Part shown: positions 33,809 to 55,710 of the stretch, one piece after another
How positions within the stretch are numbered: position 1 is the first letter of the stretch
Layout: each line of letters opens with the position of its first letter
Assembly: GCF_011604685.1 (NCBI RefSeq)
Contig: NZ_CP050063.1
Location: 445,001-509,000, forward strand
Origin: Spirosoma aureum
GTDB taxonomy: Bacteria; Bacteroidota; Bacteroidia; Cytophagales; Spirosomataceae
Direction of reading: 5' to 3'
Length of the DNA stretch: 64,000 nt
Notes under the pieces: model-generated
The model's input: the letters and a program-made list of their open reading frames with translations, nothing else
Told to the model about the DNA's origin: nothing
Database searches by the model: none
Made by a program: the position numbers and the translations under genes

Positions 33809-35017
33809 ATGGCTATAGTCTACTTTATATACCTCTTTTTTTTAGGTTATCTGGCACTTAGCGTGGTCTATCTGGCGGTATTTGCGATTGCTGGTCGCCT
33901 TGGCCGGGCCGATGATAAGTACCAAACTGGTCAGCAACAGGACCGTAAAAAGATAGGTGTATTAATCCCGGCTTATAAGGAAGATGCTGTTATTGTTGAT
34001 TCTGTACGGGCCAATTTGAAACAGGACTATCCTGCCGACCGTTTTGAATTGATTGTTATCGCCGATTCCTTCCAGCCGCATACGTTAGAACTGCTATCAA
34101 CTTTACCTATCCGGGTAATTGTGGTTTCCTTTGAGGTTTCCACAGTAGCTAAGGCTATTAACGCGGCACTTGCGCAAATTCCAGATCATCAGTATGATAT
34201 TTTAGTCGTGTCGGATGCTGACAACCACATGGCACCCGATTTTTTAAGTCGTATAAATGCCGCTTTTGGGCAGGGCTGGAAAGCAGTACAGGGCCATCGG
34301 GTCGCTAAAAATACAGATACAAGCGTGGCCGTTCTGGATGCGATTAGCGAAGAGATTAATAACCATATATTTCGGAAGGGAAGCCGTGCGCTGGGACTGG
34401 CTTCGTCAATTATTGGCTCGGGAATGGCTTTTGATCCGGTTTTGATGAAAACCGGTATGGCTAACCTGCATACGATGGGAGGCTATGATAAAGAGCTGGA
34501 AATGAACATCGTATTGAGTGGCAATAAGATCGGTTATCTGGAAGATGCCTTTGTTTATGATGAAAAGGTAGCCCAGCAGGCGGTATTCGAAAATCAACGT
34601 ACCCGCTGGATTGCTGCCCAGTGGCAATTTTTGAAGTTTTATTTCAGACGGGGTGTAACTGAATTTGTAAATGGTCGAATGTCAAGTGCATTCAAGGTTA
34701 TTCAGGCACTTGTGTTGCCCCGTGTAATCCTGCTGGGTGTGCTTGGGCTATGTACACTTCTGGGTTTGTTGGGTTCTAACCCTATTTTATGGCGTATGCC
34801 ACTCTTATCGTTACTGCTTCTGATTGCAAGCCTGATTATTGCTGTTCCCGGCTATTTATGGAAACGGGTTACTATGCGGGAAATAATGCTTGTTCCAGTA
34901 TTGATGTTACGTTTTGCCCGTGCTATTTTTAATATCCGGAAAGCCTTTAAAAGCTTTATGCACACCCCCCATACCAGTTCGCCGGAAAAGCCTACAGATC
35001 CTGCAAGAGTCCCCTGA
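33809..35017 (+). CDS. Membrane glycosyltransferase family 2
   Basis: The 402-residue protein starts with a membrane helix (VYFIYLFFLGYLALSVVYLAVFA), then a GT-A catalytic domain with the nucleotide-binding GVLIPAYKEDAVI strand, the metal-binding VVSDADNHM, and the acceptor motif ENQRTRWIAAQW, the (Q/R)xxRW signature of processive-type GT2 enzymes. Two or more C-terminal helices follow. It resembles enzymes that start or extend an exopolysaccharide at the inner membrane. It is the first gene of the glycan region and is separated from the next gene by a 400-base gap with a strong terminator, so it is its own transcription unit. Confidence 0.87.
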   Translation: MAIVYFIYLFFLGYLALSVVYLAVFAIAGRLGRADDKYQTGQQQDRKKIGVLIPAYKEDAVIVDSVRANLKQDYPADRFELIVIADSFQPHTLELLSTLPIRVIVVSFEVSTVAKAINAALAQIPDHQYDILVVSDADNHMAPDFLSRINAAFGQGWKAVQGHRVAKNTDTSVAVLDAISEEINNHIFRKGSRALGLASSIIGSGMAFDPVLMKTGMANLHTMGGYDKELEMNIVLSGNKIGYLEDAFVYDEKVAQQAVFENQRTRWIAAQWQFLKFYFRRGVTEFVNGRMSSAFKVIQALVLPRVILLGVLGLCTLLGLLGSNPILWRMPLLSLLLLIASLIIAVPGYLWKRVTMREIMLVPVLMLRFARAIFNIRKAFKSFMHTPHTSSPEKPTDPARVP

Positions 35018-36266: not shown

Positions 36267-38456
36267 ATGACAGTCGAAGTATTTCTGCGGCTTCTTAAAC
36301 AGCATATACTCTGGTTCATTCTTATTCCCTGTGTAACGGCTGGAACAGCTTTTTATGTTACACGGAATGAGCCTAAAGTTTATAAATCCCAGGCAACTTT
36401 ATATACGGGCCTGGTTTCTCGCTATTCCTTACTGTCTGATAAACAGGGCGGTGTCGTTGATCGGTCAGCTAGTGCGATTGATAATATTCTAACGACACTG
36501 AGCTCGAAGGAAACCTTGCTCCAGATCGGAATAGATTTGCTGACCGATCATTTACGGCTTCAACAACCTGATAGTTTAGTCTTGTCGGCGGCTGGTTTTC
36601 AGCAACTACGGCAATCGATTCCACCTACCTGGCAGAACGCTCTATTTGTCAACAGTGATTCCACTGACTTACACAAGCTCATCGACAGTCTGGCCAAAAG
36701 CCCTTATGATAACCCCATAAAAGCGTTACTGATCCAGCCGGGGTCTCATTATTCAATTCAGCTGTTAGGCGAAAAGCTGAAAGCGTCGGCCCGTAAAAAT
36801 ACAAATGATGTGCTGACAATGGAGTTTGAATCCAGCGATCCGGCGGTAGCGCAAAAAACCCTCGTTTACGCCATCAAGGCGTTGAATTACCGGTATTCTA
36901 ATCTGAAAACGTCTGAAACGAACTCGGTAGTTAATTATTACGAAGATAAACTGAAGAAAGCGAAGCAGGCACTTGATCAGGCTGAAGCAAATTTACGGGC
37001 TTTCAATACCAATAATAAGGTGTTAAATTATGATGAAGAAGCCCGCAACGTAGCAACTTCCCGCGAAGAACTTATTAAGGCTTATAATGAGGAATTGATG
37101 CGGAAAGATGCCGCGAAAGCGTCTCTCGATGCACTCAATCGCCGAACAACTCAACAGGGAACATTAAATGCTGCTCAGGCTGATCTGAACGAAAAGCAGA
37201 AAAAACTGACTGATGCTGAAAATAAGCTGGCTAATGCGCGAGCCTATGGTCAACCCAAACATGTCATTACCAAGCTACAGGAAGGCATTGCAAAAGCATC
37301 GGAGGATTTGAAAATCAGTGCTCAAAAATACGACGCTGCCACCAATACATCCGATGGCGTTCCGGCACAGGCAATGGCTACTGATCGATTAGCCAAATCG
37401 TTGGAATATGACGAATCGGTTGCCCGTCTGGAATTGTATAAAAAACGGATCAATGAGTATCAGGTTAAAACGAATGAATACACACCATTAGGGTCTCAAC
37501 TCCGGCAGCTGGAACGCGGCCTGAGCGTTGCCGAAAAAGAATACCTCGACTTATTGCAACAGGTAGAACAATCCGAGACCCGTCGTCAGGATATTGCCAT
37601 TGGAGGTACGCTGGAGATCATGGACGCGCCCGATTACCCATTGACTCCTCAGGTATCGAAACGAATGCAGCTCATTGCTATTGGCGCTGGGGCCGGCATC
37701 TTTATCGCCTTGCTGCTGATGGCCCTACGCTTCTGGCTCGATAACCGGATTCACTCGCCTGAGCAGGCTGAACAACAGGTTGGCATGCCGGTTTCGGCCT
37801 TGTTTCCAACCGTTTCTAAACCAAACGTTTTTTCGAAAGCGACGCTGGCTAGCCGGAATATGTTCGAGCAGCTATTCAATGCGGTTAATATTGAAATTTC
37901 GCAGGCTACCTCTAAACCGTTCCCACCACTTGTTACCCTTTTTAGCATCGGGTCGAAACAGGGTAAAACCTGGGTGGCAAATGGATTGAATCAACTATAT
38001 GCCGAAGCTGATCAGAAGGTGGCATACTGTTATCCACGCGTAACCGGAAAAGAACAAAAAGAATTGATTGGTGGGATTACTCTCTTTCCGTATACGGTTC
38101 GCCCAGATTTTATGAACGTTACAGGCGTAGATTACCTGATTGACTACAATCATGGATTTGATGCGTCTCAGTTTGATCGGATTGTACTTGAATTACCTCC
38201 TCTCCTGACAAATCAGATTCCGGTCTATCTACTTAAAAACAGCGTTCTTTCGTTATTGGTAGTTGATGCCAACAGTGCCTGGGCACGCGCCGAAAAGCAA
38301 TTGTTAAGTTTATATGTACGGGTAACCAATCAACCTATTCTACTCATTTTGAATCGTGTTGAAGGGAATTACATTGATGTTCCCGGCCGGGCAGATGTTA
38401 GAAAAGTGCCTGTTGGAACGGAGCGTTCGGTGCTGTCTCAGCGCAACATGCCCTAG
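36267..38456 (+). CDS. Wzc/GumC-like polysaccharide co-polymerase, kinase domain degenerate
   Basis: The 729-residue protein has an N-terminal Wzz domain with TM1 near residues 13-31, a long periplasmic coiled coil (about 205-430, repeated K/A/E heptads), TM2 near 468-490 and a cytosolic C-terminal domain laid out as a bacterial tyrosine kinase. The P-loop position reads FSIGSKQGKTW (about 559-568), one residue short of a canonical GxxxxGKT, and the Walker A' position reads IVLELPPLL where a kinase has D. There is no Tyr cluster at the C-terminus. It is therefore likely a chain-length or export scaffold without kinase activity. It is linked to the TolC-like gene. Confidence 0.8.
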   Translation: MTVEVFLRLLKQHILWFILIPCVTAGTAFYVTRNEPKVYKSQATLYTGLVSRYSLLSDKQGGVVDRSASAIDNILTTLSSKETLLQIGIDLLTDHLRLQQPDSLVLSAAGFQQLRQSIPPTWQNALFVNSDSTDLHKLIDSLAKSPYDNPIKALLIQPGSHYSIQLLGEKLKASARKNTNDVLTMEFESSDPAVAQKTLVYAIKALNYRYSNLKTSETNSVVNYYEDKLKKAKQALDQAEANLRAFNTNNKVLNYDEEARNVATSREELIKAYNEELMRKDAAKASLDALNRRTTQQGTLNAAQADLNEKQKKLTDAENKLANARAYGQPKHVITKLQEGIAKASEDLKISAQKYDAATNTSDGVPAQAMATDRLAKSLEYDESVARLELYKKRINEYQVKTNEYTPLGSQLRQLERGLSVAEKEYLDLLQQVEQSETRRQDIAIGGTLEIMDAPDYPLTPQVSKRMQLIAIGAGAGIFIALLLMALRFWLDNRIHSPEQAEQQVGMPVSALFPTVSKPNVFSKATLASRNMFEQLFNAVNIEISQATSKPFPPLVTLFSIGSKQGKTWVANGLNQLYAEADQKVAYCYPRVTGKEQKELIGGITLFPYTVRPDFMNVTGVDYLIDYNHGFDASQFDRIVLELPPLLTNQIPVYLLKNSVLSLLVVDANSAWARAEKQLLSLYVRVTNQPILLILNRVEGNYIDVPGRADVRKVPVGTERSVLSQRNMP

Positions 38457-38574: not shown

Positions 38575-41500
38575 ATGGAAAACAAGGGTCTTGTCCTCTC
38601 GCGGCTTGTTCATCAACTGGTCGAACAAACTGCCAGTAAGCATCCTGATACCATCGCTTTAATTTTGGGCGGAGATACACTGACTTACCGCCAGTTAAAC
38701 GAACAGGCAGAAACCATATGCCACACTATTCTGAATGTTGATCCTGACGCAGCGTTAATCGGTGTAAGCAGCGCCCGAAGCCTGGACATGGTAATTGGCG
38801 TACTAGCAGTGTTGAAGGCTGGGAAAGCCTACCTTCCGCTTGACCCAACGTATCCTGCCCAACGTTTGGAACAAATCAGTATTGATTCAGGTATTAAAAC
38901 CTGCCTGGCCACAGCTCAGGATGCTCCCGTATTTGAGCAAATAGGTCTGCATGTAATTTCGTCTGGTAAAGCCTCTGGTTTTGTCCCTCAATCGGCAAAT
39001 CGGCAAAAGAGTACCGCTTATGTGCTCTATACGTCAGGCTCAACCGGTAAGCCCAAAGGCGTCAGCATGGGGCACGGCCCCCTAATGAACCTGTTGCATT
39101 GGCAGGCAGCTAATTCGGAGGCAGCAGTTGGTACGAGAACGTTGCAGTTGGCGCCCCTTAGCTTTGACGTTTCATTTCAGGAGATTTTTGCCACGCTCAG
39201 TACAGGTGGAACACTCATCCTGATTGATGAAGAGCTTCGTCTGGATTTGACGGCTCTGTTGGCATTTATCGACGAGCAATCCGTGAACCGGCTTTTTCTG
39301 CCCTTCGTAGCTCTTCAATATCTGGCCGAGGCTGCGGTTAGTACACAGCGCTTCCCGAGCGCACTGCGTGAAATCATGACGGCGGGCGAACAGCTGAAGA
39401 TTACACCTCAGCTAACCTCGTTCTTTACTGCCCTGCCCAACTGCGTACTGTTTAACCAGTATGGCCCAACCGAGTGTCATGTCGTAAGCCAGCTAAAACT
39501 GGAAGGCAATCCCACAGAGTGGCCTTTGTTGCCATCTATTGGCAAAGCCATCGACAACGTTAGTCTGTTCATTGCCGATGATAACCTGACTCTGTTACCT
39601 GAGGGTGAGTCGGGTGAGCTACTAATTGCCGGTGATTGTCTGGCAGAAGGATACCTACATCAGGAAGCATTAACGAACGAGAAGTTTATCGAACTGGCAA
39701 TTCCTGGGCGGGGCATAACCCGAATTTATCGAACCGGTGATCTGGCACGTTATCAGCCTGATGGCACAATTGAATTTCTGGGACGCCGTGATGACCAGGT
39801 AAAGATTCGGGGCCATCGGGTTGAACTGGGTGAACTGGAAGTTATTATCAATCAACTACAAGGAGTAAAGCAGGCCGTTGTCGTTGCCCGAGAAGGGATA
39901 GGCGGTCAGAAGCAATTAATCGCTTATCTCGTTTCTTCTGGCGAGACGAAGGAAAACGTTGGAATTCGGAAAGAACTTGAACAGCGTTTGCCCGACTATA
40001 TGATGCCATCGGCTTTTGTCTGGATGGACGATTTCCCAAAAACCAGTAGTGGAAAGGTCGATAAGAAAAAGCTACCGGCTCCCGAGCAGAAGCGCCCGGA
40101 ACTGGCGGTAACCTATCGGAAGCCTAAAACCTCACTTGAGCAAACCATTGCGAATGTATGGGCCACGCTATTACAGCTAGACAAAGTTGGCCTGGATGAT
40201 AATTTCTTTGAATTAGGCGGCAATTCGCTTTTAGCCCAGAAAATAGTTGCCGCTTTAAAACAGGAGCAACAGAGCTTACCTGTAACGAAGCTATATCAAT
40301 ATCCGACGATTGCCGGGATCGCTCGTTATTTACAACCTCAGGCACTAATACAGGCCGGGAACGAAGTTACGGAACCTCAGCCCCGGAAAGGAATCCCGTC
40401 TCCGCATCAGGCAGATGTCGCCATAATCGGTATGACTGGCCGATTCCCGGGTGCAACAACCATTGATGAGTTCTGGGACTTATTGAAGCAGGGGCGCGAA
40501 ACTACCCGCTTCTTTACGGATGAAGAATTAGACGTAAACATACCGTCCAGGCTCAAAAATGATCCACTTTATGTCAAAGCGAGAGGGGTCATTGACAATG
40601 CCGATCAGTTTGACGCTCAGTTTTTTGGATTAGCCCCCACGGTTGCGCAACTGATGGACCCGCAACAGCGCGTATTTCTGGAAATAGCCTGGGAAGCACT
40701 GGAACAAACGGGGTATCTACCCCAGCAGTATAACGGCCGCGTTGGCGTATTTGCAGGCTGCGGCAATAACACCTATTACCTGAACAATGTGCTGACCAAT
40801 ACTGAATTGGTTGATCAGGTTGGTAGTTTTCAGGTAATGACGCTGAATGAAAAAGATTATATAGCTTCCCGTACTGCTTACCAGCTAAATCTGAAAGGGC
40901 CTGCGGTAAGTGTTTATTCGGCCTGCTCTACCTCCCTACTGGCCATAACGCAGGCTGTTCAAAGCATTCGTAGCGGGCAGTGCGATGTCGCTCTGGCAGG
41001 AGGTGCAACCATAACAGCACCAATCAATAGTGGCCACCTTTATCAGGAGGGAGCCATGTTCAGTAAAGATGGCCATTGCCGATCATTCGATGCACAGGGC
41101 GAAGGAACGGTCTTCAGTGATGGTGCAGGTGTCGTTTTATTAAAAAATCTGGATGCTGCCCGGCGCGACGGCGACACGATCTATGGTGTCATAAAAGGGG
41201 TTGGTGTTAATAACGATGGAGCTGGAAAAGGCAGCTTTACTGCCCCGAATGCTGAAGGACAGGCTGCTGCTATTGCCATGGCTATTCAGGATGCCCAGAT
41301 AGAGCCAACGACCATAAGTTATGTAGAAGCGCATGGAACAGCCACCCCACTTGGGGATCCAATTGAAATTGAGGGCCTGACGATAGGATTTGGCGAGCAA
41401 ATCGAAAAACAGTACTGCGCAATTGGCTCGGTCAAGAGTAATATGGGGCATTTGACGGCAGCTGCTGGTGTTGCGGGGCTTATCAAAACAACCCTGGCTT

Positions 41501-44500
41501 TATACCACCGGCAAATTCCGGCTTCGCTCCATTACTCGACGGTTAACCCCGCCATTAATTTTGCAGAAACACCCTTTTTTGTCAATACAAAGCTCACCGA
41601 ATGGACACCAACCGGTGTTCGGGAGTCGAATCCGCGACGGGCTGGTGTAAGCTCATTCGGTGTCGGTGGGACTAATGTACATGTCGTTTTAGAAGAATTT
41701 ATACAGGAAGAGCCAGAAACAACAGCCGGACGACCCGTTCAGCTGATTACGTGGTCTGCCAAGTCGCTGGTAAGTCGTGAGACATATGCCGATCGGCTGG
41801 CCGAAAAACTTCGGCAGAAAGCACCGTTGAGTCTGGCTGATACAGCATTTACGCTACAGACAACCCGGCCTGATTTTAAGCACCGTCGCTTTGCCGTTGC
41901 TGCAACGAGTAATGAGCTACTCGAAAAGCTTACGGCTACTACCGTTACGCCATCGACAATAAAAACGGTTAAAGAAGCTCCGGGCGAAGTTGTCTTTATG
42001 TTTCCTGGCCAGGGAGCACAGTTTCTGAACATGGGCCGTATGCTTTACGACCATGAGACTGTGTATCGGCAGGCAGTTGATGAATGTGCCGACCTCTTGA
42101 AAGCCTACATGGAAGTCGACATTCGCCAGGTCATTTATCAACAGGCTCTGGATGTAGATGCTGAACAACGTCTGAAAAACACACGCTATACACAGCCCGC
42201 TCTGTTTGTTACCGAATATGCACTGGCAAAATTGTGGATGAGCTGGGGCATTGAACCTTCCATATTCTGCGGGCACAGCATCGGCGAATTTGTGGCTGCT
42301 CATCTGGCGGGAGTATTTACGCTTGCCGATGCCCTGATGCTGATTGCAACACGTGGCCAACTCGTAAGCGAACAGCCCAGAGGCAGCATGCTTTCGGTAC
42401 GTATGCCTGCCGAAACGTTACAGGCTATGCTGCCATCAAGCCTTTCGGTGGCAGCCATAAACAGCCATAAATTGTGCGTAGTAGCTGGCCCGGATGAACA
42501 CATTGCCGATTTCGCCCGCTTGCTCGACGAGCAGGAAATTCTTAACCAGCCCCTCGAAACCAGCCATGCATTCCATTCAACAATGATGGACCCTGTGGTT
42601 GACCGGTTTGAAGAAATAGTAAGAAAAGTTGCGTTAAATCGACCTCAAAAACCACTAGTATCAACAGTAACAGGCTCATGGCTAAGTGACGCGCAAGCCA
42701 CTGATACGTCTTATTGGGCAAATCATTTGCGGGCGACAGTACGCTTTGCTGATGCAATTACCACAATCGTAGAGCTGGAAAATCCCCTTTTGATGGAAGT
42801 TGGTCCCGGTCATGTTACAGCAACGCTCGCCCGACAACAGACGAATAATAAGCCCATAACCGTATTGGCGGGTCTCGTTAATAATCCTGATGAGATAGTT
42901 GCTTACCAGTCTGTTCTGACGACACTTGGCCAACTCTATCTAAATGGTTTAGAGCCAGATTGGGCTGAATTCTATGCTCATCAAAGCAGAAAAAGATTAA
43001 ATTTACCAACGTATGCTTTCGACAGAAAGCGTTGCTGGGTTGATCCTGTCCGTTCATCTATATCAAGCATACAAACGAATACAACACCTGACATAGCTAC
43101 ATCATCCACACCAATAGCACAACCTGCAATGAGAAAACACATATTGATCAATAAGATCAACACATTATTAGAAGATGCATCCGGCATCGACATGGAAGGA
43201 GTAACGCCCGACATGAGTTTTCTGGAAATAGGCCTTGACTCGTTGCTGCTGACACAGGTGGCGCTAACTTTGAAGAAAGAGTTTAACGTACCTGTAACGT
43301 TTCGGCAACTAACGAGTGAATATGCCACTCCGGAACTACTGGCGAATTATCTGGATCGTACGTTACCGATTTCTGATGCTCCAGCTCCGATCTCTCTCCC
43401 AATTGCCAGTTCGGTTCAGCCAGAACAAACGTATGTAGCACCCGTAGCAAGTTATGGCGGAGTGCCGGTTGCTGCTAATGACTCAGCGCTGGGCCTGATA
43501 GCCCAACAGTTACAACTGCTTGCCAAACAGGTTGCCCTTATGCAGGGAACAAATCCTGAAGTAGTAATTTCACCAGCTCCGGTAGTTCAGGCCGTCGTAA
43601 CAACCAATACGAACAGAACTGCGGAGGCACTTTCTATGCCTAAAACAGAAACGGCGTCGTTAAAAGTAGCTACTATCGATACTGCTGATCTGACTCCCGA
43701 AGAGAAAATAGAGCTTAAAAAACCGTTCGGAGCAACGGCTCGAATTGAACGTCAGTCTTCGGAATTAACGAATGAGCAACAATTCTTTTTAGAAAGACTG
43801 ACTCGTCGTTATAATCAGAAAACAAAGAATAGTAAGGCCTATGCCCAGCAACACCGCTCGCATATGGCTGACCCACGAGTTGTATCCGGTTTTCGGCCAC
43901 TGACGAAGGAAATTGTCTATCCATTGGTTGTTAACCGTTCGAAGGGGAGTCATTTGTGGGACATTGATGGGAATGAATACATTGATGCCCTGAATGGATT
44001 TGGCTCGAACATGTTTGGCTATCAGCCCGATCTGATCAAGCAGGCTTTGCATGACCAGATCGAAAACGGCTATGAAGTAGGTCCGCAACACGAACTCGCG
44101 GGTGAAGTAAGCCAGTTGATCTGTGAGCTGACGGGCACAGATCGGGCAGCTTTATGCAATACGGGTTCGGAGGCTGTTTTGGGTACAATGCGAATTGCCC
44201 GTACGGTAACTGGCCGATCCTTGATTGTTGCTTTTTCGGGTTCCTATCACGGCATTGCCGATGAGGTATTGGTTCGGGGCACTAAAAAATTAAAATCATT
44301 TCCGGCTGCTCCCGGTATCATGCCTGAGTCGGTTCAGAATATGCTCATTCTGGACTATGGCACCGAAGAGAGCCTGAAAATCATTCAGGAACGAGCTCAC
44401 GAATTGGCGGCTGTTTTGGTCGAACCTGTGCAAAGCCGTCGTCCGGAGTTTGTACCAATCGATTTCCTGAAGCAGGTTCGGGCGATTACGGCTGCATCGG

Positions 44501-45279
44501 GCACCGCGTTGATCTTCGATGAAGTGATTACCGGTTTTAGAACACACCCCGGTGGAGCACAGGCTTTGTTTGGTATTAAAGCGGATCTGGCTTCTTATGG
44601 TAAAGTAGTCGGGGCTGGCTTACCTATTGGTGTTATCGCGGGTAAACGCGCCTTTATGGACGCGCTTGATGGCGGTTTTTGGCAATACGGCGATAGCTCG
44701 GTTCCCGAAGTTGGGGTCACTTATTTTGCCGGTACATTCGTTCGGCATCCCATGGCATTGGCAGCGGCTAAAGCGTCTCTGCAATACATGAAAGAGAAAG
44801 GGCCATCATTACAACAGGAACTTACCCAGAAAACCAAACGACTTGCCGATGCGTTGAATGTGATCATCGATCGTCAGCAGATTCCACTCGTCGTGGCACA
44901 GTTTGGCTCGCTCTGGAAGATAAAATTTAAGGAAGAGATCCCTTATGGTGAACTGCTATTCACGCTAATGCGCGAAAAAGGTATTCATATCTGGGATGGC
45001 TTCCCCTGCTTTCTGTCCGAAGCGCATACCAATGAAGAAATAGATAGCATAATTGATCGATTCTCCAGAAGCATAAATGAATTAATTGACGCTGGTTTTT
45101 TAGACGCTACCCCGACATTAGCGACTAGAGTGCAGATGGCCGGGGTGGCACTTGCTGGCGATTTACCACCCGTTCAAGGAGCCCGGCTAGGTCGCGATCA
45201 GCTCGGAAATCCGGCCTGGTTTATACCGAATCCGGAGCGTCCAGGCAAATATCTACAAGTCAAGTTAAATGAGATTTGA
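38575..45279 (+). CDS. Hybrid NRPS/PKS: A-PCP-KS-AT-ACP-aminotransferase
   Basis: The 2234-residue megasynthase has, in order, adenylation (about 1-500, YTSGSTGKPKG near 152), carrier with Ser in GGNSLLA near 551, ketosynthase (about 615-1060, active Cys784 in YSACSTS, His near 921 in EAHGTATP and 958), acyltransferase (about 1135-1430, Ser near 1232 in GHSIGEF; HAFH near 1330 marks malonyl-CoA), carrier with Ser in GLDSLLL near 1555, and a class III PLP aminotransferase (about 1750-2190, DEVITGFR, Lys2010 in SYGKVVGAG). There is no KR, so the beta-ketone would be aminated. No C domain precedes A, so it loads the first amino acid. The hand-read A-domain code is D-V-Q-F-M-A-Q-V-V, close to the proline code. 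The next gene follows immediately. Confidence 0.93.
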   Translation: MENKGLVLSRLVHQLVEQTASKHPDTIALILGGDTLTYRQLNEQAETICHTILNVDPDAALIGVSSARSLDMVIGVLAVLKAGKAYLPLDPTYPAQRLEQISIDSGIKTCLATAQDAPVFEQIGLHVISSGKASGFVPQSANRQKSTAYVLYTSGSTGKPKGVSMGHGPLMNLLHWQAANSEAAVGTRTLQLAPLSFDVSFQEIFATLSTGGTLILIDEELRLDLTALLAFIDEQSVNRLFLPFVALQYLAEAAVSTQRFPSALREIMTAGEQLKITPQLTSFFTALPNCVLFNQYGPTECHVVSQLKLEGNPTEWPLLPSIGKAIDNVSLFIADDNLTLLPEGESGELLIAGDCLAEGYLHQEALTNEKFIELAIPGRGITRIYRTGDLARYQPDGTIEFLGRRDDQVKIRGHRVELGELEVIINQLQGVKQAVVVAREGIGGQKQLIAYLVSSGETKENVGIRKELEQRLPDYMMPSAFVWMDDFPKTSSGKVDKKKLPAPEQKRPELAVTYRKPKTSLEQTIANVWATLLQLDKVGLDDNFFELGGNSLLAQKIVAALKQEQQSLPVTKLYQYPTIAGIARYLQPQALIQAGNEVTEPQPRKGIPSPHQADVAIIGMTGRFPGATTIDEFWDLLKQGRETTRFFTDEELDVNIPSRLKNDPLYVKARGVIDNADQFDAQFFGLAPTVAQLMDPQQRVFLEIAWEALEQTGYLPQQYNGRVGVFAGCGNNTYYLNNVLTNTELVDQVGSFQVMTLNEKDYIASRTAYQLNLKGPAVSVYSACSTSLLAITQAVQSIRSGQCDVALAGGATITAPINSGHLYQEGAMFSKDGHCRSFDAQGEGTVFSDGAGVVLLKNLDAARRDGDTIYGVIKGVGVNNDGAGKGSFTAPNAEGQAAAIAMAIQDAQIEPTTISYVEAHGTATPLGDPIEIEGLTIGFGEQIEKQYCAIGSVKSNMGHLTAAAGVAGLIKTTLALYHRQIPASLHYSTVNPAINFAETPFFVNTKLTEWTPTGVRESNPRRAGVSSFGVGGTNVHVVLEEFIQEEPETTAGRPVQLITWSAKSLVSRETYADRLAEKLRQKAPLSLADTAFTLQTTRPDFKHRRFAVAATSNELLEKLTATTVTPSTIKTVKEAPGEVVFMFPGQGAQFLNMGRMLYDHETVYRQAVDECADLLKAYMEVDIRQVIYQQALDVDAEQRLKNTRYTQPALFVTEYALAKLWMSWGIEPSIFCGHSIGEFVAAHLAGVFTLADALMLIATRGQLVSEQPRGSMLSVRMPAETLQAMLPSSLSVAAINSHKLCVVAGPDEHIADFARLLDEQEILNQPLETSHAFHSTMMDPVVDRFEEIVRKVALNRPQKPLVSTVTGSWLSDAQATDTSYWANHLRATVRFADAITTIVELENPLLMEVGPGHVTATLARQQTNNKPITVLAGLVNNPDEIVAYQSVLTTLGQLYLNGLEPDWAEFYAHQSRKRLNLPTYAFDRKRCWVDPVRSSISSIQTNTTPDIATSSTPIAQPAMRKHILINKINTLLEDASGIDMEGVTPDMSFLEIGLDSLLLTQVALTLKKEFNVPVTFRQLTSEYATPELLANYLDRTLPISDAPAPISLPIASSVQPEQTYVAPVASYGGVPVAANDSALGLIAQQLQLLAKQVALMQGTNPEVVISPAPVVQAVVTTNTNRTAEALSMPKTETASLKVATIDTADLTPEEKIELKKPFGATARIERQSSELTNEQQFFLERLTRRYNQKTKNSKAYAQQHRSHMADPRVVSGFRPLTKEIVYPLVVNRSKGSHLWDIDGNEYIDALNGFGSNMFGYQPDLIKQALHDQIENGYEVGPQHELAGEVSQLICELTGTDRAALCNTGSEAVLGTMRIARTVTGRSLIVAFSGSYHGIADEVLVRGTKKLKSFPAAPGIMPESVQNMLILDYGTEESLKIIQERAHELAAVLVEPVQSRRPEFVPIDFLKQVRAITAASGTALIFDEVITGFRTHPGGAQALFGIKADLASYGKVVGAGLPIGVIAGKRAFMDALDGGFWQYGDSSVPEVGVTYFAGTFVRHPMALAAAKASLQYMKEKGPSLQQELTQKTKRLADALNVIIDRQQIPLVVAQFGSLWKIKFKEEIPYGELLFTLMREKGIHIWDGFPCFLSEAHTNEEIDSIIDRFSRSINELIDAGFLDATPTLATRVQMAGVALAGDLPPVQGARLGRDQLGNPAWFIPNPERPGKYLQVKLNEI

Positions 45280-48200
45280 ATGGTAAAAAGTGCTACTCAC
45301 ACCGATATAACGTTCGTTGAAGTTGACTTTGATCCATTTGTCGGTCCTGAACTTTTGCGATTAGCACCTGTAACGGAATCACAGGAGGAAGTATGGACAT
45401 CTTGCCAATTAGGTGGTAACGATGCCAGTAGGGCATATAATGAGTCAGTTTCGCTTAAACTCAACGGAACATTAAACCGATCAGCACTAGAGCGGGCTTT
45501 ACTGGCCCTAGTGCATCGGCATGAAGCCTTACGCTCTGCATTTAGTGCTGATGGCAGGCAGATTTGTGTCTTTCAGGTGTCGCTAATCAAACCCGATTAT
45601 GTTGACTGTTCGACGCTAGCTGAATCTGAAAAGAGCCAGATTATAGCAAATTATGTAGAACAGGATGCCCTGCATGTATTTGATCTGTTAAACGGTCCGC
45701 TAGTTAAGGCTGGCCTGATTAAAGTATCGGATACGGAGCATCAGTTGGTTTTAACGGCTCATCATATTGTTTGTGATGGTTGGTCGATGGGCATCATGCT
45801 ACAGGACCTGAGCGCACTCTATTCGGCCTATGCCAATAATTTGGCGCCTAATTTACCAGAGCCTACTCCGTATAGTCAATATGCGGTTGAGCAGGTTTTG
45901 TTCAGTAAGAGTGAGCAATATAAGCAGATCGAAAAATTCTGGGTTGATCAATATCGTGAGACAGTTCCCGTCTTAGAGTTACCCACCGACTTTCCAAGGC
46001 CAGCCTTACGGACCTATAAAAGCACTCGTCGCGACTATCCGTTGGATGATGCATTGGTATTGGCCGTAAAACAAATGGGTATAAAGGCTGGAAGCAGCTT
46101 TGTATCAACCCTGATGGCTACGTTCGAAGTATTGTTGCATCGCCTGACAGGTCAGACCGAAATTGTGCTGGGTTTACCTGCTGCCGGTCAATCGGCTACC
46201 GGTAACCTTCGGCTGGTTGGGCATTGTGTAAATCTTCTGCCCTTACGGAGTTCGGTGCGGCCCGACCAACCCTTTCAGAAGTTTTTACAGCAGCGGAAAG
46301 ACGCCGTTCTCGACGCCTATGAGCATCAGCAATTAACATTTGGCAGTCTGCTAAAAAAACTACCGATTGCCCGTGATCCATCACGAGTGCCGTTGGTGCC
46401 TGTAATCTTTAATGTCGATATTGGATTGGATAATGGTGTCGACTTTTATGGTCTTGAACACCAGCTTATCAACAACGTCAGGCAATTTGAGACGGTTGAT
46501 CTATCGGTCAATATTAGCGGCTCATCAGCGACCTCGTTAACCATAGAATGTTCATATAATACACAGTTATTCCAGGAAAATACCATTGACCGGATAATTG
46601 ACGAGTATGTTAGCCTTCTGGAAACGGTAGTCGCTAATCCGTTGGTGCCTATTGATGAAATTCCGTTAGCCGATCGGGGAGAGCTACTTCGGAAGTTGGC
46701 CCGCTGGAACAATACCGTTGCCGATTACCCACGGAATACGCCTTTACACGAACTATTGGCAAAGACGGTAGCTCAATATCCCACAAAAATTGCGCTTGTT
46801 TCGAATGGGCGCTCAGTGAGTTATCGACAATTGAACGAAACAGCCAATCAAGTTGCTCGTTCGATTCAGAGTTACGATATAAAAGTAGGCGATGTTGTGG
46901 GCGTGTTACTGGATCGTTCGCCAGACCTGCTGATTACGTTGCTGGCCATTCTTAAAGCCGGAGCTGCCTACGTACCCATTGACCCAACCTATCCGCAGGA
47001 TCGCATTGCGTTTATGTTGAGTGATTCTTCGGCTCAATTACTCATTACGTCTAAAAAATATGCAGGACGGCTTGAGCACCAGGCTCGGGAAATCCTTATT
47101 GAGTCATTAGTAGCAGAGTCGATTGCGCACTCTAAAAGTGAGCCTGATACAATTGTTTTGGGCCCTGATCTGGCTTATATATTGTATACATCCGGTTCGA
47201 CGGGCCGGCCTAAAGGCGTTTTGATCGAGCATCGTAATCTGGTCAATCTGCTGTATAGCATGGTCGCCTGGCCGGGAATAACGAACAGAGACGTTCTCTT
47301 GGGCGTTACGACTGTGTCATTCGACATTGCAGGGCTGGAACTATACCTGCCTTTACTTGCCGGAGCTACCCTTGTGCTGGCTGATGCAGAAACTGCCAAA
47401 GATGGTCGAGCCTTATTAGACGTACTTAAATCCCCAATCCAAACGGATACCGCTCAGCCCGCTTTGCCAATAACCATTATGCAGGCGACACCTGTAACCT
47501 GGAAAATGATGCTGGCAGCAGGTTGGGACGAGCCATTGTCGCTTAAAATCCTGTGTTGCGGTGAACCCATGTCGAAAGACCTGGCTCAAAAACTTACTGC
47601 TCGTTGCGATACGCTCTGGAACATGTATGGCCCAACCGAGACGACAATTTATTCGACTGGTAAACAGATCCTGGCCACCGATGAAATTATTACAATTGGC
47701 CGGCCAATCCAGAACACGCAGGTTTACATACTTGATGAACAACTAAGCCCATTACCCGAAGGAATTGTTGGGGAAATTTACATTGCAGGCGACGGTGTAG
47801 CACGTGGTTATCTTAATCGGCCTGAGCTAACAAAGGAGAAATTTGTTAGAAACCCATTTGCCGGATCAAAATCCGGGATGATGTATCGTACGGGGGATCT
47901 TGGCAAATTTATGGCTGATGGAGAAATCCATTGTCTTGGCCGCAGTGACCAACAGATAAAAATCCGTGGCTACCGGGTTGAACCAGGCGAAGTTGAACAG
48001 GCATTACTAGCAATTGACGGTATTAAAGAGGCTCTGGTAATTGCCCGTGAAGATCGACCGGGCGACCAGCGTCTGGCGGCTTACATTGTTACAGGCTCGC
48101 CCATGAGCGATGTCACCTTTACGGAGGTTGTTTTAAAATGGCGGGCAAAGCTACAGGAGGGTTTACCCGACTATATGGTTCCGTCAGATTTTATCAATCT

Positions 48201-49386
48201 GCCCGTATTGCCGGTTACGCCGAACGGTAAAATTGATCGGAATGCGCTACCTAAACCAATTAATGCGTTACGATCGGCAGATAAAGGGAGGGCCGAACCA
48301 GTAACGGAAACAGAAAAGTTAATTACAGAAATCTGGGCCGACGCACTGGGACTTAATACCATAGGGATTCATGATGACTTTTTTGAGTTGGGAGGCCATT
48401 CAATGATTGCCGTGCAGGTTATGACGCGTATTGAAAAGGAAATGGGCCGACGTTTACCCTTATCGACGCTCATGACCTATCCGACTATTCACAAGCTTGC
48501 GCAACTACTTCAGGAAAAAAAGCCAGCCATGAAATGGAAGTCATTAGTGCCAATTAAGCCACAAGGCAATAAAATCCCGATTTATATTATTCATGGAATT
48601 GGGTTGAATGTGCTGAATTTCAGCAGTTTTCTGACCAATATGGACCCCGAACAGCCGATCTATGGATTGCAGGCGCGGGGCCTGGACGGTATCGATGAGC
48701 CACTGGATAGTATGGAAGGAATTGCTTCGTTTTATAATTCGGAGATACTCGAGCAAAATCCAGACGGACCTTATGCTATTGCTGGCTACTCGTTTGGTGG
48801 CTATGTAGCCCTTGAGATGGCTCGCCAGCTGAAAGAAATGGGCAAAGAAGTACGGATGCTTGCCATGCTTGATACGAACGCACAGGAATGGGAGGCAAAT
48901 TATTCGTTGATGAATTGGCTAAGCCGGAAAATACTGCGTCAGTTCCCGAAAATGGTTTGGTTTACGAAGTCGCTCTTTAGTCAGCCTATTGCGACCATTC
49001 ACTACCAACAACAATACGTTGAGCGTCATGCCAATTCATTGTTAAAAGCGATAGGCCTACGAAATGAGCCTGAACCAGAAAAAGAACTTGACCTACTGAG
49101 TCGGATCATCGATAAGCATGAAATTGCCTATCAGAATTATACAATGAAGCCTTATGATGGAGTTGTTGATCTCTTCAAAGCAAAAACCCGACTATACTTT
49201 GTTGACGATAGTAAATTCCTGGGCTGGAAAAAATACGCGTTAAAAGGGGTTCGCGTCCATGATGTTCCGGGTGATCATGAAATGATGTTATTGCCGCCAA
49301 ATGACAAGGAATTCGCCCGTTTGCTACAGATGGCATTAGACAGCTTAAGCCCTATCCACCGTAAACAGGAACTAACCACTGCTTAA
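45280..49386 (+). CDS. NRPS: C-A-PCP-TE, terminating module
   Basis: The ATG follows the previous TGA with no gap. Domains of the 1368-residue protein: condensation (about 18-450, HHIVCDG near 161), adenylation (about 480-1000, YTSGSTGRPKG near 636, YRTGDLG), carrier (about 1015-1090, Ser near 1041 in GGHSMIA), thioesterase (about 1110-1365, Ser1171 in GYSFGGY, Asp in AMLDTN, His1333 in GDHEMM). It would join the beta,gamma-diamino acyl chain to one more amino acid and release the product by hydrolysis or cyclisation. The hand-read A code is D-I-L-Q-L-C-M-I-Y, close to the glycine code D-I-L-Q-L-G-L-I-W but with Cys and Tyr at two pocket positions. A perfect terminator follows. Confidence 0.93.
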   Translation: MVKSATHTDITFVEVDFDPFVGPELLRLAPVTESQEEVWTSCQLGGNDASRAYNESVSLKLNGTLNRSALERALLALVHRHEALRSAFSADGRQICVFQVSLIKPDYVDCSTLAESEKSQIIANYVEQDALHVFDLLNGPLVKAGLIKVSDTEHQLVLTAHHIVCDGWSMGIMLQDLSALYSAYANNLAPNLPEPTPYSQYAVEQVLFSKSEQYKQIEKFWVDQYRETVPVLELPTDFPRPALRTYKSTRRDYPLDDALVLAVKQMGIKAGSSFVSTLMATFEVLLHRLTGQTEIVLGLPAAGQSATGNLRLVGHCVNLLPLRSSVRPDQPFQKFLQQRKDAVLDAYEHQQLTFGSLLKKLPIARDPSRVPLVPVIFNVDIGLDNGVDFYGLEHQLINNVRQFETVDLSVNISGSSATSLTIECSYNTQLFQENTIDRIIDEYVSLLETVVANPLVPIDEIPLADRGELLRKLARWNNTVADYPRNTPLHELLAKTVAQYPTKIALVSNGRSVSYRQLNETANQVARSIQSYDIKVGDVVGVLLDRSPDLLITLLAILKAGAAYVPIDPTYPQDRIAFMLSDSSAQLLITSKKYAGRLEHQAREILIESLVAESIAHSKSEPDTIVLGPDLAYILYTSGSTGRPKGVLIEHRNLVNLLYSMVAWPGITNRDVLLGVTTVSFDIAGLELYLPLLAGATLVLADAETAKDGRALLDVLKSPIQTDTAQPALPITIMQATPVTWKMMLAAGWDEPLSLKILCCGEPMSKDLAQKLTARCDTLWNMYGPTETTIYSTGKQILATDEIITIGRPIQNTQVYILDEQLSPLPEGIVGEIYIAGDGVARGYLNRPELTKEKFVRNPFAGSKSGMMYRTGDLGKFMADGEIHCLGRSDQQIKIRGYRVEPGEVEQALLAIDGIKEALVIAREDRPGDQRLAAYIVTGSPMSDVTFTEVVLKWRAKLQEGLPDYMVPSDFINLPVLPVTPNGKIDRNALPKPINALRSADKGRAEPVTETEKLITEIWADALGLNTIGIHDDFFELGGHSMIAVQVMTRIEKEMGRRLPLSTLMTYPTIHKLAQLLQEKKPAMKWKSLVPIKPQGNKIPIYIIHGIGLNVLNFSSFLTNMDPEQPIYGLQARGLDGIDEPLDSMEGIASFYNSEILEQNPDGPYAIAGYSFGGYVALEMARQLKEMGKEVRMLAMLDTNAQEWEANYSLMNWLSRKILRQFPKMVWFTKSLFSQPIATIHYQQQYVERHANSLLKAIGLRNEPEPEKELDLLSRIIDKHEIAYQNYTMKPYDGVVDLFKAKTRLYFVDDSKFLGWKKYALKGVRVHDVPGDHEMMLLPPNDKEFARLLQMALDSLSPIHRKQELTTA

Positions 49387-49490: not shown

Positions 49491-50390
49491 CTATTTCTCG
49501 GCCTTCAAACTGCGTAAGACTATCTTTTTTACTTTATTATATATCTTTCTTACTAATCTATAATTACCACTAATAGGCTTGTAGTTTTTCCAGGGAGTTA
49601 GCTTTAAATAGTTAAAAAATACCGTCTGGAAATAGGGGTCGGATTTATACGATTTAAATATTGGTTTTATATCAAGATAGTGAATAATAAATGGATTTTT
49701 ATTTTCAAATGTAGCAAACCAATTCCACCGCGGATCCAGCTCAAACCATTGATTAACCAACGCTACATTAAGACCGTATTGATCGGCGAAATTTATGTAT
49801 TGTAAATTATCGTGTAAGCACTTAAATACTTTATTCGTAATGTCGGCCTCTCGCCATGCTTTAGCGTTAATAAGCAGTAGACCAGAATTGAAATATTTAG
49901 TATCGGCCGACATTCCTAATTCTTTATAATTAGGAATTCCACCCCAGGAACAGCTTACAACTTTCTGAAAATCCTGGACGGCTCCGAATATATTGGCACC
50001 CATATCAATATTCCATAATTTCGAAATATCTTCAAGTACAATCATGTCTACATCCAAGTAGATTATGCGTTCTAAATTCGCTGGAACAACGTAAGGAGAA
50101 AATACTCTAAAATATGCAGTAAGGGGAAAGGCAGTATTGTCAATTGGGAATTTTATCGTTGAGGGAACGACTTGCTCTGCATTTAACCAATGAATAGCTA
50201 TATCCTTTGACTGTACAGAAGCCTCTATTTTTTCCTTATTACGAGTTGAAATGCGATCGTCAATAATGTAAAAGTCAATTGCTTCATCTGTTTTGTGATT
50301 CAATTCAATTGATTTTACTAAAGCAGCTATCAAGATAGCATAGTGATTATCACTGGCCAATACAATACTTATACGCTCCTTTGTATTCAT
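49491..50390 (-). CDS. Glycosyltransferase family 8 (LgtC-like)
   Basis: The 299-residue protein has the GT8 N-terminal SIVLASDNHYAILIAALVKSIELN segment, the metal-binding DxD in RIIYLDVDMIVLEDI, GVNAK-like sites (FNSGLLLINAKAWRE) and HYLDIKPI. GT8 enzymes transfer galactose, glucose or similar from UDP-sugars with retention. No signal or membrane helix is seen; a basic C-terminal tail (KIYNKVKKIVLRSLKAEK) could attach it to the membrane. The surrounding DNA is visibly AT-rich (16 G/C in 49501-49560). It converges on the NRPS operon and may act on glycan or on the NRPS product; this is undecided. Confidence 0.88.
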   Translation of the reverse strand: MNTKERISIVLASDNHYAILIAALVKSIELNHKTDEAIDFYIIDDRISTRNKEKIEASVQSKDIAIHWLNAEQVVPSTIKFPIDNTAFPLTAYFRVFSPYVVPANLERIIYLDVDMIVLEDISKLWNIDMGANIFGAVQDFQKVVSCSWGGIPNYKELGMSADTKYFNSGLLLINAKAWREADITNKVFKCLHDNLQYINFADQYGLNVALVNQWFELDPRWNWFATFENKNPFIIHYLDIKPIFKSYKSDPYFQTVFFNYLKLTPWKNYKPISGNYRLVRKIYNKVKKIVLRSLKAEK

Positions 50391-50638
50391 AAAAGATAAA
50401 ATTTCGGCACTAGATAAATAAGCTAATTACCTTTATTTACAAATTATTTAATAGCTATTTAGGTATTGTGAGTATCCATGGAGCACAAGAGATGCCAAGA
50501 GGATAACTATCCTTGCAACGGTTCTATTTGTGCTTAGCTACTTTCTTTTGACTCATTAATTAGAAATAGGTAACCACTATTTTTCAGAAATAAAATATAG
50601 TGCTTCTAATTGTACCAAAAAGGAGACAATTTTTAAAT

Positions 50639-51532
50639 TCAGCCATTAATTTTCTCTTGCAAGTTAATCAACTGCCCAAGCATTTTAGTGTATACTAATG
50701 CTGGAATGGCCATGCCAGGCCGATATTTTTTTAAGGACAGAAAATTGTCGTTTGCGAAGTCATTCCAGTTTGATTCATTTAAATGGACGCGACCTAAAGA
50801 AATACACGGTTCGTGGATTTGCGTCGTATGCCACCATTTTGTTGGGAACAGGATGGTTTCGCCCTCTTCAATGGTAACTCTTATTGGTTGTGCCTGCCGA
50901 AAAAGAGGGTATTTTTCATAGTTTGGGCTAAATACATTTACTTGAGAAATCTTGGGATTCTCCTCTCTTGGGTACATGAAAGGAGTTTGCTCTGGAGGAA
51001 ACAAGAAGAATTCTTTGGAGCCATGCAATTGCGTGATTTGTGTATGCAGGAACAAAGCATCTACATGCAGGAAAGGAAAATGGCCGCCATTGCCACCCAA
51101 AAAAATCTCATAGACTTCTGTACCCTTAAGCATAAACTTGGGTAACAGCGGATGTTTAACACGATCAGATTTTGAATAAAGTATACCAGGTTTTAAATCG
51201 TCTAAGAGTTCAGGGGCGCGTTGCTCCAGATTGAAGTTAAATGGATAGGGAGCAGGCTTCTCAGGAGTAGACGTTAACATTAGATCAATATACTCGGGTA
51301 AAGTATAAGTCTTTCCTCTAATTTCCTTCGTGATGTGGCTATAATTAGCCTTAAAGAATTGAGGAGTAAATTTTCCCATTGCTTTCCAGTCCTTAGTGGC
51401 ATCAGTCAAAATAACCGGAATAGCAGGTTCAATATATTCTTTAATTAGCTCTTTTTGTGAAATGTTACTGCGCCTGTCAATTTCTTTAATTTGACTTTCT
51501 TTATATTTATTTATTATTAAATTTGTGCTCAT
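50639..51532 (-). CDS. JmjC/cupin-8 Fe(II)/2-oxoglutarate oxygenase-like protein
   Basis: The 297-residue protein has the JmjC-type double-stranded beta-helix. The facial triad is His156-x-Asp158 (FLHVDALF) with distal His235 (KWWHTTQ), and a Lys in GSKEFFLFPP fits the 2-oxoglutarate site. The N-terminal half contains EPAIPVILTDATKDWKA, the usual entry of these oxygenases. Such enzymes hydroxylate amino acid side chains on free, peptide-bound or carrier-bound substrates. Lying 1.3 kb from the end of the NRPS operon beside a GT8 gene, it is a plausible tailoring hydroxylase, but it may instead belong to surface modification. The bacterial substrate is unknown. Confidence 0.82.
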   Translation of the reverse strand: MSTNLIINKYKESQIKEIDRRSNISQKELIKEYIEPAIPVILTDATKDWKAMGKFTPQFFKANYSHITKEIRGKTYTLPEYIDLMLTSTPEKPAPYPFNFNLEQRAPELLDDLKPGILYSKSDRVKHPLLPKFMLKGTEVYEIFLGGNGGHFPFLHVDALFLHTQITQLHGSKEFFLFPPEQTPFMYPREENPKISQVNVFSPNYEKYPLFRQAQPIRVTIEEGETILFPTKWWHTTQIHEPCISLGRVHLNESNWNDFANDNFLSLKKYRPGMAIPALVYTKMLGQLINLQEKING

Positions 51533-51798
51533 AATATTGATAATTTTGGGATTCAGAGGATAGAGACTATTGTATATCGATTACGAAAAAATAATTCTCT
51601 AATTATACTGTAAAAATAAGATAATTAGTGCATTATACTTAATCTATAACGCGAGAATTAATTCTATTTTAATGGCAATTACAACAAAAAAAATCGTCAG
51701 GCTTAGTTTGTTTCTTAGAGATGAATCCCAATGAATTTGTCGCTTAAAGTTTATAAAATATCTATAAAATTTATTTATTATTTTTAGACTGACTTTGG

Positions 51799-53238
51799 TT
51801 ACTGTAAAGCCTGTCGATAAGATTTTATTTCTGTAAAAGATAACTTGTAAGCTAAGGTTAAAGCCGCATAGGTTAAACCGCCTATCAATATTTCAACTAT
51901 TGTGTTTGTAAGTCCATAATTTCCTATAAATAATTTATAGATATAAATTATTGCGATCATAATAAAACAAAATATAGCTGGCTTTGCTATGTTCTTCAAA
52001 AAGTCATTCAAAAATTCACCAATCAGGTAATGCACAAGCGCAAAATTGCCAATTAAATTAAATAGTGTAGCTAACAAAAAAGCCATGGCGATTCCCATAA
52101 CCCCCCAGTTTGTGCCAAGCCAATACACCAGAGGTATTTTTACCAATAAAGTAGCAAGGTTTAGGTAAAATAATAAGTTGGGTTTTCCCTTGGTAAACGC
52201 CAAGGTGAATAGTGGGTGACTCAAACAGGATAAGATCGCTACAAAGACAAACACCTGGATCAATTCTATCGTTTTATCCCAGCCCGGACCATAAATTAAA
52301 GGTACGACACTATCGGCTGTAATGAAAAGCCCGGCTAGTAGCGGCATATTGCAATAGCTAATAAAATCCAGAATTTTTAGATATGATTTTTTTAGATCCG
52401 ACCCTCTATCCTTCATTTTTGCCAATATTGGATAGGCTACCTGCAAGATGATTGGATTTAACTTCGAAGTTGGGAAAACTGCCAACTGATAGGCAATTGT
52501 ATAGTAGCCAAGCATTTTTACACCCAGCATTCCACCAATAAAAATATTGTCGGAATTGGATTGAATGAAACCCAGCAGTCCATCGGCCAGATTGAAAAAA
52601 CCGAAGCGTAAATGGTCTTTTATATTGCTAAGGTTGAAGGCAAAGGTGGGAACAAAAAATTTTACGCCGAATGTGATTTGCAATACTACTTTAACCGTTT
52701 GCATTACCAAAGAGCCAATAATAAGCGATAGCTCTTTGTAGCCATTATAGGCCAATGCAATCGTTACGGCTGAACCGATAATCGTACCAGTTATGTCAAT
52801 AATAGCAACCGATTTGAATCGTAGTTCTTTTTCCAGAAGAAACAAATAAAGCTGGCCGAAATAGACAATTAGAAAATAGCATGAAGAGAACTGCAATACC
52901 CCCGACAGCTTTGGTTCATGATAGAAAGAAATAATATACGGTGAGGTAAGCTGAATAATAACGAAGATTACTGCACCAACAATCAGGTTCAGAAAATACA
53001 AGGTCGATAGAACCTTCTGATCGCTTTCCTGTTTGTATATAATTGAATTGGAGAACCCAAGGTTAGAAAATATCTGAAAAAAGCTGATAATGAGGGTACT
53101 TATGCTGACAATGCCAAAAGCGGATGGGTCTAGTAAACGGGCCAATATAGCGACCTGCAAGAACTGAAACAGGGTCGAAATGGTAGTGGAAATTGTTATC
53201 CATTTTCCACCGTTCATTGCCTTACTTGTATTACTCAT
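51799..53238 (-). CDS. Wzx-type polysaccharide flippase (MOP superfamily)
   Basis: The 479-residue protein is almost entirely hydrophobic with about 12-14 predicted helices and has the typical start GGKWITISTTISTLFQFLQVAILARLLDPSAFGIV, shared by WzxC/polysaccharide transporters. It would flip undecaprenyl-linked oligosaccharide repeat units to the periplasm for Wzy-dependent polymerisation. With the O-antigen ligase/polymerase at 61046 and the Wzc-like protein at 36267, it completes a Wzx/Wzy-type set in this region. The 266-base AT-rich gap to the JmjC gene shows no supported gene. Confidence 0.9.
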   Translation of the reverse strand: MSNTSKAMNGGKWITISTTISTLFQFLQVAILARLLDPSAFGIVSISTLIISFFQIFSNLGFSNSIIYKQESDQKVLSTLYFLNLIVGAVIFVIIQLTSPYIISFYHEPKLSGVLQFSSCYFLIVYFGQLYLFLLEKELRFKSVAIIDITGTIIGSAVTIALAYNGYKELSLIIGSLVMQTVKVVLQITFGVKFFVPTFAFNLSNIKDHLRFGFFNLADGLLGFIQSNSDNIFIGGMLGVKMLGYYTIAYQLAVFPTSKLNPIILQVAYPILAKMKDRGSDLKKSYLKILDFISYCNMPLLAGLFITADSVVPLIYGPGWDKTIELIQVFVFVAILSCLSHPLFTLAFTKGKPNLLFYLNLATLLVKIPLVYWLGTNWGVMGIAMAFLLATLFNLIGNFALVHYLIGEFLNDFLKNIAKPAIFCFIMIAIIYIYKLFIGNYGLTNTIVEILIGGLTYAALTLAYKLSFTEIKSYRQALQ

Positions 53239-55602: not shown

Positions 55603-55710
55603 TGGTGAAGAGAGCTTAATTCGACAGGTCAGCCAGTTGGTCGTCATCAGAGTCTGGATAGAATGGTAGGCTCATAAATTGGCCTGTTTGAAAATTTTGT
55701 GATAAAGGGA

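Follow-up and report, generated by a model that had tools for sequence, protein, structure and literature searches.

In the mycosubtilin synthase MycA (iturin family), a ketosynthase, acyltransferase and acyl carrier protein (KS-AT-ACP) and a class III aminotransferase are followed by a condensation (C) domain, and a fatty acyl ligase provides the starter. The synthetases of linear gramicidin, tyrocidine and gramicidin S are peptide-only lines, with no known polyketide synthase (PKS) or aminotransferase. We analysed a 64,000-nucleotide stretch of the Spirosoma aureum genome (NZ_CP050063.1, positions 445,001 to 509,000; the window), in which two open reading frames, ORF1 and ORF2, encode a nonribosomal peptide synthetase (NRPS)/PKS line with the same KS-AT-ACP, class III aminotransferase and C domain. 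It differs from MycA in three ways: an amino-acid adenylation (A) domain, whose pocket is proline-like, selects the starter; a single amino acid is then added; and the genes lie in a polysaccharide locus. We tentatively propose, with somewhat less than even confidence, that the surface polysaccharide built by the surrounding Wzx/Wzy locus receives a cationic acyl unit from this line, with a putative sugar link and a putative transferase.

Milano et al. 2013 listed the layout A-CP-KS-AT-CP-PLP1 in Pedobacter heparinus C6XWU5, with the prediction 'Nrp-Mal-Gly-Pk' (PMC3870968). In the accessible part of that source, the ORF1 layout, the phylum and the glycine-like second unit are all as here, and the protein is a catalogue entry without a product or a polysaccharide link. 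An earlier reading of this DNA, made by a model from the letters (the sequence-only reading), had known of no described product with this module order. The ORF1 layout is in fact already catalogued, but no characterised product of the family was found in the open-licence literature, where an NRPS/PKS embedded in a polysaccharide locus was likewise not found described. Brinkmann et al. 2022 reported many uncharacterised Bacteroidetes clusters, and the available portion of the article does not name Spirosoma or Mucilaginibacter (PMC9248904). According to the sections available of a study on Flavobacterium psychrophilum, R-groups made on carrier proteins are attached as acyl groups to a sugar of the O-antigen; strains differ in the genes for them, which changes the acyl group and the antigenicity (PMC6519341). 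The wfpC-G genes described there resemble our case in that variable carrier-protein acyl assembly genes lie in a Bacteroidota Wzx/Wzy locus, but they encode type II fatty-acid-like enzymes and a separate N-acyltransferase, whereas the line described here is modular, carries its own thioesterase (TE) and has no recognised acyltransferase partner.

Pfam matched A, KS, AT, Aminotran_3 and two PP-binding stretches on ORF1, and C, A, PP-binding and TE on ORF2, with the two frames abutting directly at a TGA-ATG junction. The coordinates and the domain order of the sequence-only reading agreed with these matches, and every catalytic residue that it had named was located by motif, as were others (Table 1); those located include Ser1235 and His1334 of the AT; HAFHS at His1334 is what we take to be a malonyl-type motif. 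Nine ORF1 catalytic residues were identical in 117/117 homologs longer than 2000 aa (120 listed, three shorter ones excluded), and the TE triad positions of ORF2 were each intact in 97-99/99 relatives. Naturally fused ORF1-ORF2 proteins occur (3962 aa in the relative G131, 3955 aa in L139), which supports the order ORF1 then ORF2. The genome is a single 8.9 Mb contig with one condensation domain, and its modular KS, in a 2240-aa open frame, was one of seven ketosynthase-family matches, the others being shorter than 470 aa. A scan for promoters and terminators gave results at chance level.

Searched against the PDB, the aminotransferase scored 422 bits with the MycA aminotransferase (6kfm) and 182 bits with the best glutamate-1-semialdehyde aminomutase (GSAM); an assignment to HemL/GSAM was rejected on this comparison. 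As in MycA-type enzymes, the Aminotran_3 domain adjoins an ACP and has the catalytic Asp and Lys. No ketoreductase (KR), dehydratase, enoylreductase or methyltransferase family was among the Pfam matches of ORF1 and ORF2, as the sequence-only reading had claimed. That reading had named a hidden KR or a dead aminotransferase Lys2010 as findings that would refute it, and both were rejected: a KR would not fit between residue 1431, where the Pfam AT match stops, and Ser1556 of the ACP, and Lys2010 is kept in 117/117 homologs.

When the pocket stretch of the first A domain (A1) was searched alone against the PDB, it scored 98 bits with TycB1 of tyrocidine synthetase, 84 bits with GrsB1 of gramicidin S synthetase and 56 bits with the next entry; we take TycB1 and GrsB1 to be proline-activating domains. 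The stretch of the second A domain (A2) was nearest to 5u89 and 4zxh, presumably glycine domains. The positions of the A1 pocket were assigned by a numbering that we assume to hold here. The A1 pocket was one position off the published Pro code DVQFVAQVVK, which is given together with DVQYIAHVVK in the available part of one source (PMC9113097); the accessible text of a 2025 survey reports Val236 and Gln239 in 59/71 proline domains and gives DILQLGMIWK as a Gly code (PMC12283262). Compared with the latter, the A2 pocket has Cys in place of Gly and Tyr in place of Trp, so another small residue is possible there. The pocket residues suggest that A1 is proline-like and A2 glycine-like. TIGR01733 (amino acid adenylation domain) was over its cut-off in the line; on this match and on the proximity of A1 to proline domains, a fatty acyl starter of the iturin/mycosubtilin kind was rejected.

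In the route that we consider probable, ORF1 would load proline onto its peptidyl carrier protein (PCP1), the KS would extend the prolyl unit with malonyl carried on the ACP, and the MycA-type aminotransferase would convert the beta-ketone to an amine, giving 3-amino-3-(pyrrolidin-2-yl)propanoyl-ACP. ORF2 would couple this unit to glycine, and the TE would release or transfer the product. Because the pockets suggest proline and glycine, we infer 3-amino-3-(pyrrolidin-2-yl)propanoyl-glycine, for which the free acid computes to C9H17N3O3 ([M+H]+ 216.1343). The domains and residues, with MycA as the nearest aminotransferase, support the earlier proposal that an amino-acid starter would undergo mycosubtilin-type beta-amination, after which a further residue would be joined and the TE would release the product. 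The 3,4-diamino acid of that proposal would persist as a vicinal diamine predicted from the domain order, but very probably not in its aminostatine-like form, since a proline-like A1 would place the gamma nitrogen in a ring.

The sequence-only reading did not mention the polysaccharide locus around the pair or the spread of the family. ORF1-ORF2 sit inside a Wzx/Wzy locus, with the chain-length gene on one side of them and the flippase gene on the other. The locus contains a flippase, a Wzy-type polymerase, a chain-length protein (weak family matches), glycosyltransferases and an initiating sugar-phosphate transferase, and runs beyond the window through a further GT2 to that transferase. A 279-aa TolC-like (OEP) protein stands in place of a Wza-type outer-membrane export protein, no search having been aimed at the Wza family. 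The genome contains a second polysaccharide locus (about 3.33-3.35 Mb), which has Bac_transf, GT2, GT2c, Wzy, GT4, OEP, Wzz, flippase and further genes on one strand; its OEP, chain-length and flippase genes lie side by side, without NRPS/PKS. The assembly line therefore occupies the spot where the chain-length and flippase genes adjoin elsewhere, and the flippase side of the window locus is inverted as well. With ORF1-ORF2, the window locus carries acyl assembly genes with carrier proteins, as R-group-type loci do. We favour a polysaccharide substituent because the logic resembles that of F. psychrophilum, with acyl assembly genes in a Wzx/Wzy locus and a varying unit; the cationic acyl unit would become a substituent on the repeat, made before flipping.

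The ORF1-ORF2 pair is a large family across Bacteroidota. The nearest named ORF1 homologs were from Spirosoma, an aminotransferase of this type at ≥65% identity was present in 55/200 genomes of the same family, far beyond chance, and sampling 395 genomes at the level of Bacteroidota gave 18 with a match at 1e-90, of which 13 had ≥62% identity. A scan of named genome contigs gave at least 591 relatives, of which 80 were kept as named loci, from Hymenobacter, Spirosoma, Larkinella, Fibrella, Fibrisoma, Mucilaginibacter, Pedobacter, Parapedobacter, Puia, Flavobacterium, Maribacter, Winogradskyella and others. Around 31 copies we inspected stretches of 40 kb (one shortened to 27 kb by the contig end): ORF2 directly followed ORF1 in 25, the gene immediately preceding ORF1 was Wzz-like in 15, OEP and Wzz were both present in 16, a flippase above 200 bits in 14 and a 4'-phosphopantetheinyl transferase (PPTase) in 21. 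The syntenic block was found in Spirosoma and two related genera (g3, g8).

Outside this block, an initiating sugar transferase lay within 30 kb in at least 7/22 loci (G114, the second copy in G131, G058, G018, G017, G003 and G298), compared with 1.05 expected (P = 4e-5). Among 30 named genomes, such a transferase was confirmed within 30 kb in seven (L116, L120, L122, L125, L146, L159, L176) and at about 37 kb in two more (L127, L155), the other 21 being scored neither way; six of these nine positives were confirmed by sequence overlap. In Mucilaginibacter (L120 and L119/G298), the order was ORF1, ORF2, PPTase, initiating transferase, an unassigned gene and Wzz, with Wzy next in G298, and complete transferase-Wzz-Wzy-glycosyltransferase runs adjoined the pair in Mucilaginibacter L125 and Pedobacter antarcticus L146. 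We also compared flanking ORFs (the first 150 of 157 from 44 named loci, minus 7 longer than 1000 aa, leaving 143) with control ORFs from 20 far stretches (176, four longer than 1000 aa already removed, reduced to 141 by dropping about every fifth). GT2 was found in 17/143 flanking ORFs (Fisher P = 5e-5) and Cupin_8 in 12/143 (P = 0.0015), both P values ignoring shared descent, and Methyltransf_25 and Bac_transf in 11/143 and 3/143, respectively; each family occurred in at most 1/141 control ORFs, meaning that it was absent from the top-25 list of the control.

Several results weigh against a polysaccharide substituent. Among the matches listed, 15/22 loci outside the block had no initiating transferase within 30 kb, including G048, G108, G082, G063, G458, G575, G412 and G279 (42 kb); the distances were already known when the 30 kb limit was set, and the loci are not fully independent. 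Some ORF1-ORF2-PPTase copies lie beside an ABC transporter or beside peptidase, isopropylmalate-dehydrogenase-like or DNA polymerase IV-like (housekeeping) genes, 5/34 genomes of the genus list no such aminotransferase, and G182, the closest relative, has the flippase half of the locus separated from ORF2. The scanned window proteins included no recognisable amino-sugar N-acyltransferase or other acyltransferase for attaching the unit to a sugar, and an intact TE terminates the line, as is usual for a free product. That every family copy lies in a polysaccharide locus was rejected, many copies having other neighbours.

The main and close rival, which we regard as quite possible, is a free secreted small molecule, either a linear beta,gamma-diamino dipeptide or a TE-closed ring such as 1,4-diazepane-2,5-dione, acting for instance as a signal, metal binder or inhibitor, with polysaccharide neighbours that are incidental or share regulation and export. 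The TE conserved in ORF2 and its relatives agrees with this, as do the many copies without polysaccharide neighbours, among them Larkinella with its ABC transporter next to the PPTase. The pair also moves as a unit, an ORF2-type gene lying next or next but one to ORF1 in 70/80 named loci. Against a free product, genes for sugar transferases and glycosyltransferases recur near the pair in separate lineages more often than in the control, and no resistance gene or dedicated exporter was recognised adjoining the line in the window.

A further rival concerns the chemistry. The line has no condensation domain ahead of A1, which would leave the amine of the starter free, and the unprotected pyrrolidine nitrogen, gamma to the thioester, could cyclise on the carrier to give mainly 1-aminopyrrolizidin-3-one (C7H12N2O, [M+H]+ 141.102) or a tetramate-like bicycle, with ORF2 partly bypassed. 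We consider this improbable, since ORF2 is retained with intact sites and the fused proteins of G131 and L139 occur. The aminostatine-like protease inhibitor of the sequence-only reading shares the predicted vicinal diamine, but is very improbable, as the gamma nitrogen would lie in a ring, the chain would stop after glycine without a statine-type side chain, no self-resistance protease was found, and nothing else pointed to such an inhibitor.

To return to the polysaccharide substituent, the loading part of the line varies within a constant chassis. The A1 pocket was of the DVQ..QV[VI] type in 72/120 homologs (10 unread) and in 40/63 readable named loci, and A2 was DIL-type in 45/60 readable ones; other A1 types include DAQ, DPE and DAT, the last presumably Asn-like. 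Copies with similar KS and aminotransferase identity could differ sharply in A1 (G089 vs G155) or A2 (G158 vs G106). On a tree of the KS-AT and aminotransferase from 93 copies, the A1 class changed at least 20 times for 14 classes, between the minimum of 13 and the at least 35 of shuffled labels; A1 class is therefore mostly inherited but repeatedly exchanged or changed. In ORF2 variants of 1730-1780 aa, A2 is enlarged by an insert of about 380 aa that contains a methyltransferase-like motif; the window ORF2 lacks this insert. An extra condensation module was rejected for these variants, the length being that of the insert. As a wider and more doubtful proposal, Bacteroidota may use a portable NRPS/PKS line to build vicinal-diamine dipeptides that are bound covalently to surface polysaccharides as cationic decorations, with the TE or an unrecognised partner acylating the sugar and A-domain exchange diversifying the surface as O-antigen R-group genes do. 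A TE acting as sugar transferase is a conjecture.

We know of no described case of modular NRPS/PKS lines making sugar-polymer substituents, which is what these enzymes would do if the proposal is true; a widespread Bacteroidota family now filed just as 'NRPS/T1PKS' would then gain a testable product and role. Even on a plain reading, the line comes with a definite predicted mass (m/z 216.134) and named substrates, and its ordered chassis allows natural A-domain exchange to be studied.

Table 1. Features of the assembly line and of the surrounding polysaccharide locus (window positions, except for the last row)
Feature	Position	Strand	Basis or remark
ORF1, A-PCP-KS-AT-ACP-aminotransferase	38575..45279	+	2234 aa; Pfam and motif residues
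A1 adenylation domain, proline-like pocket D V Q F M A Q V V	38575..40089	+	Pfam, pocket comparison, published Pro codes
PCP1, Ser551	40141..40332	+	Pfam, motif
Ketosynthase, Cys784/His920/His959	40414..41709	+	Pfam, motif; C-terminal limit approximate
Acyltransferase, malonyl-type motif (GHSIG, HAFHS)	41992..42867	+	Pfam, motif
ACP, Ser1556	43162..43374	+	Pfam, motif; limits approximate
MycA-type class III aminotransferase, Asp1982 and Lys2010	43765..45114	+	PDB search bits, motif
ORF2, C-A-PCP-TE	45280..49386	+	1368 aa; Pfam and motif residues
Condensation domain, HHIVCDG; sole C domain found in genome	45364..46674	+	Pfam, motif
A2 adenylation domain, glycine-like pocket D I L Q L C M I Y	46759..48249	+	Pfam, pocket comparison
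PCP2, Ser1041	48319..48510	+	Pfam, motif
Type I thioesterase, Ser1171/Asp1198/His1333	48577..49290	+	Pfam, motif
Glycosyltransferase family 2 (GT2) of polysaccharide locus	33809..35017	+	
Outer-membrane efflux (TolC-like, OEP) protein, 279 aa	35418..36257	+	
Wzz-like polysaccharide chain-length protein, directly upstream of ORF1	36267..38456	+	weak family matches
Glycosyltransferase family 8 (GT8), in low-GC insert	49491..50390	-	
Cupin_8 (JmjC-like) protein, possible tailoring hydroxylase	50639..51532	-	
Wzx-type flippase	51799..53238	-	
Type IX-secreted protein, probable clan-A glycoside hydrolase	53287..55647	-	weak
Protein with type IX sorting domain (CHU_C)	55711..56715	-	
4'-Phosphopantetheinyl transferase, probable carrier-domain activator	56864..57610	+	best of 3 ACPS-family matches in genome
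Glycosyltransferase family 11 (fucosyltransferase family)	57896..58768	+	
Glycosyltransferase (Glyco_trans_1_4)	58802..60019	-	
Glycosyltransferase family 2	60062..60922	-	
Wzy-type polymerase/ligase (Wzy_C)	61046..62527	-	
Glycosyltransferase family 2	62596..63831	-	
Initiating sugar transferase (Bac_transf), just past window	G000:C1:509786-510520		

Several observations concern the neighbouring genes. GC content fell to 33.5% at 50001-52000, compared with about 45-48% around, in a dip at GT8/Cupin_8 (49491-51532), and among the 31 neighbourhoods GT8 was labelled in the window alone, being present also in the split half of G182. The low GC and this confined occurrence suggest that the GT8/Cupin_8 segment is a recent insert. 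In G182 (L022/L023 vs L203/L204), the break lies between ORF2 and GT8, with the rearranged halves more than 3 Mb apart and the GT8-to-GT2 half at 4.19-4.21 Mb, distant from ORF1. In several lineages (for example L113, L122, L144 and L163), the pair is again accompanied by Cupin_8 (JmjC-like) genes, sometimes two together, and hydroxylation of the unit by their products is possible.

The type IX-secreted protein at 53287-55647 (-) has 786 aa and is kept in the locus, 11 aligned copies being 50-79% identical. Its invariant NE381 and ITE519 resemble the clan-A glycosidase acids, and its profile gave a weak match to PslG (4zn2, E 0.006), which we take to be the glycosidase of the Pseudomonas Psl locus. 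A 409-aa protein without Pfam or NCBIfam match (31363-32592, +) lies upstream in six of the closest copies.

Further observations come from the second locus and from relatives. In the second polysaccharide locus (L205, G000:C1:3330000-3349999), the Wzz-like gene is in two frames of 303 and 441 aa, and a 656-aa protein fuses an acyltransferase-3 with a GT2. ORF1 is in two frames in L038/L039 (G131) and L080/L081 (G114), which may reflect decay or sequencing error. Two genes upstream of ORF1, a Fibrisoma-like genome (G018) encodes a protein that combines an HD domain with a Pycsar effector membrane domain (L052:10081-11289).

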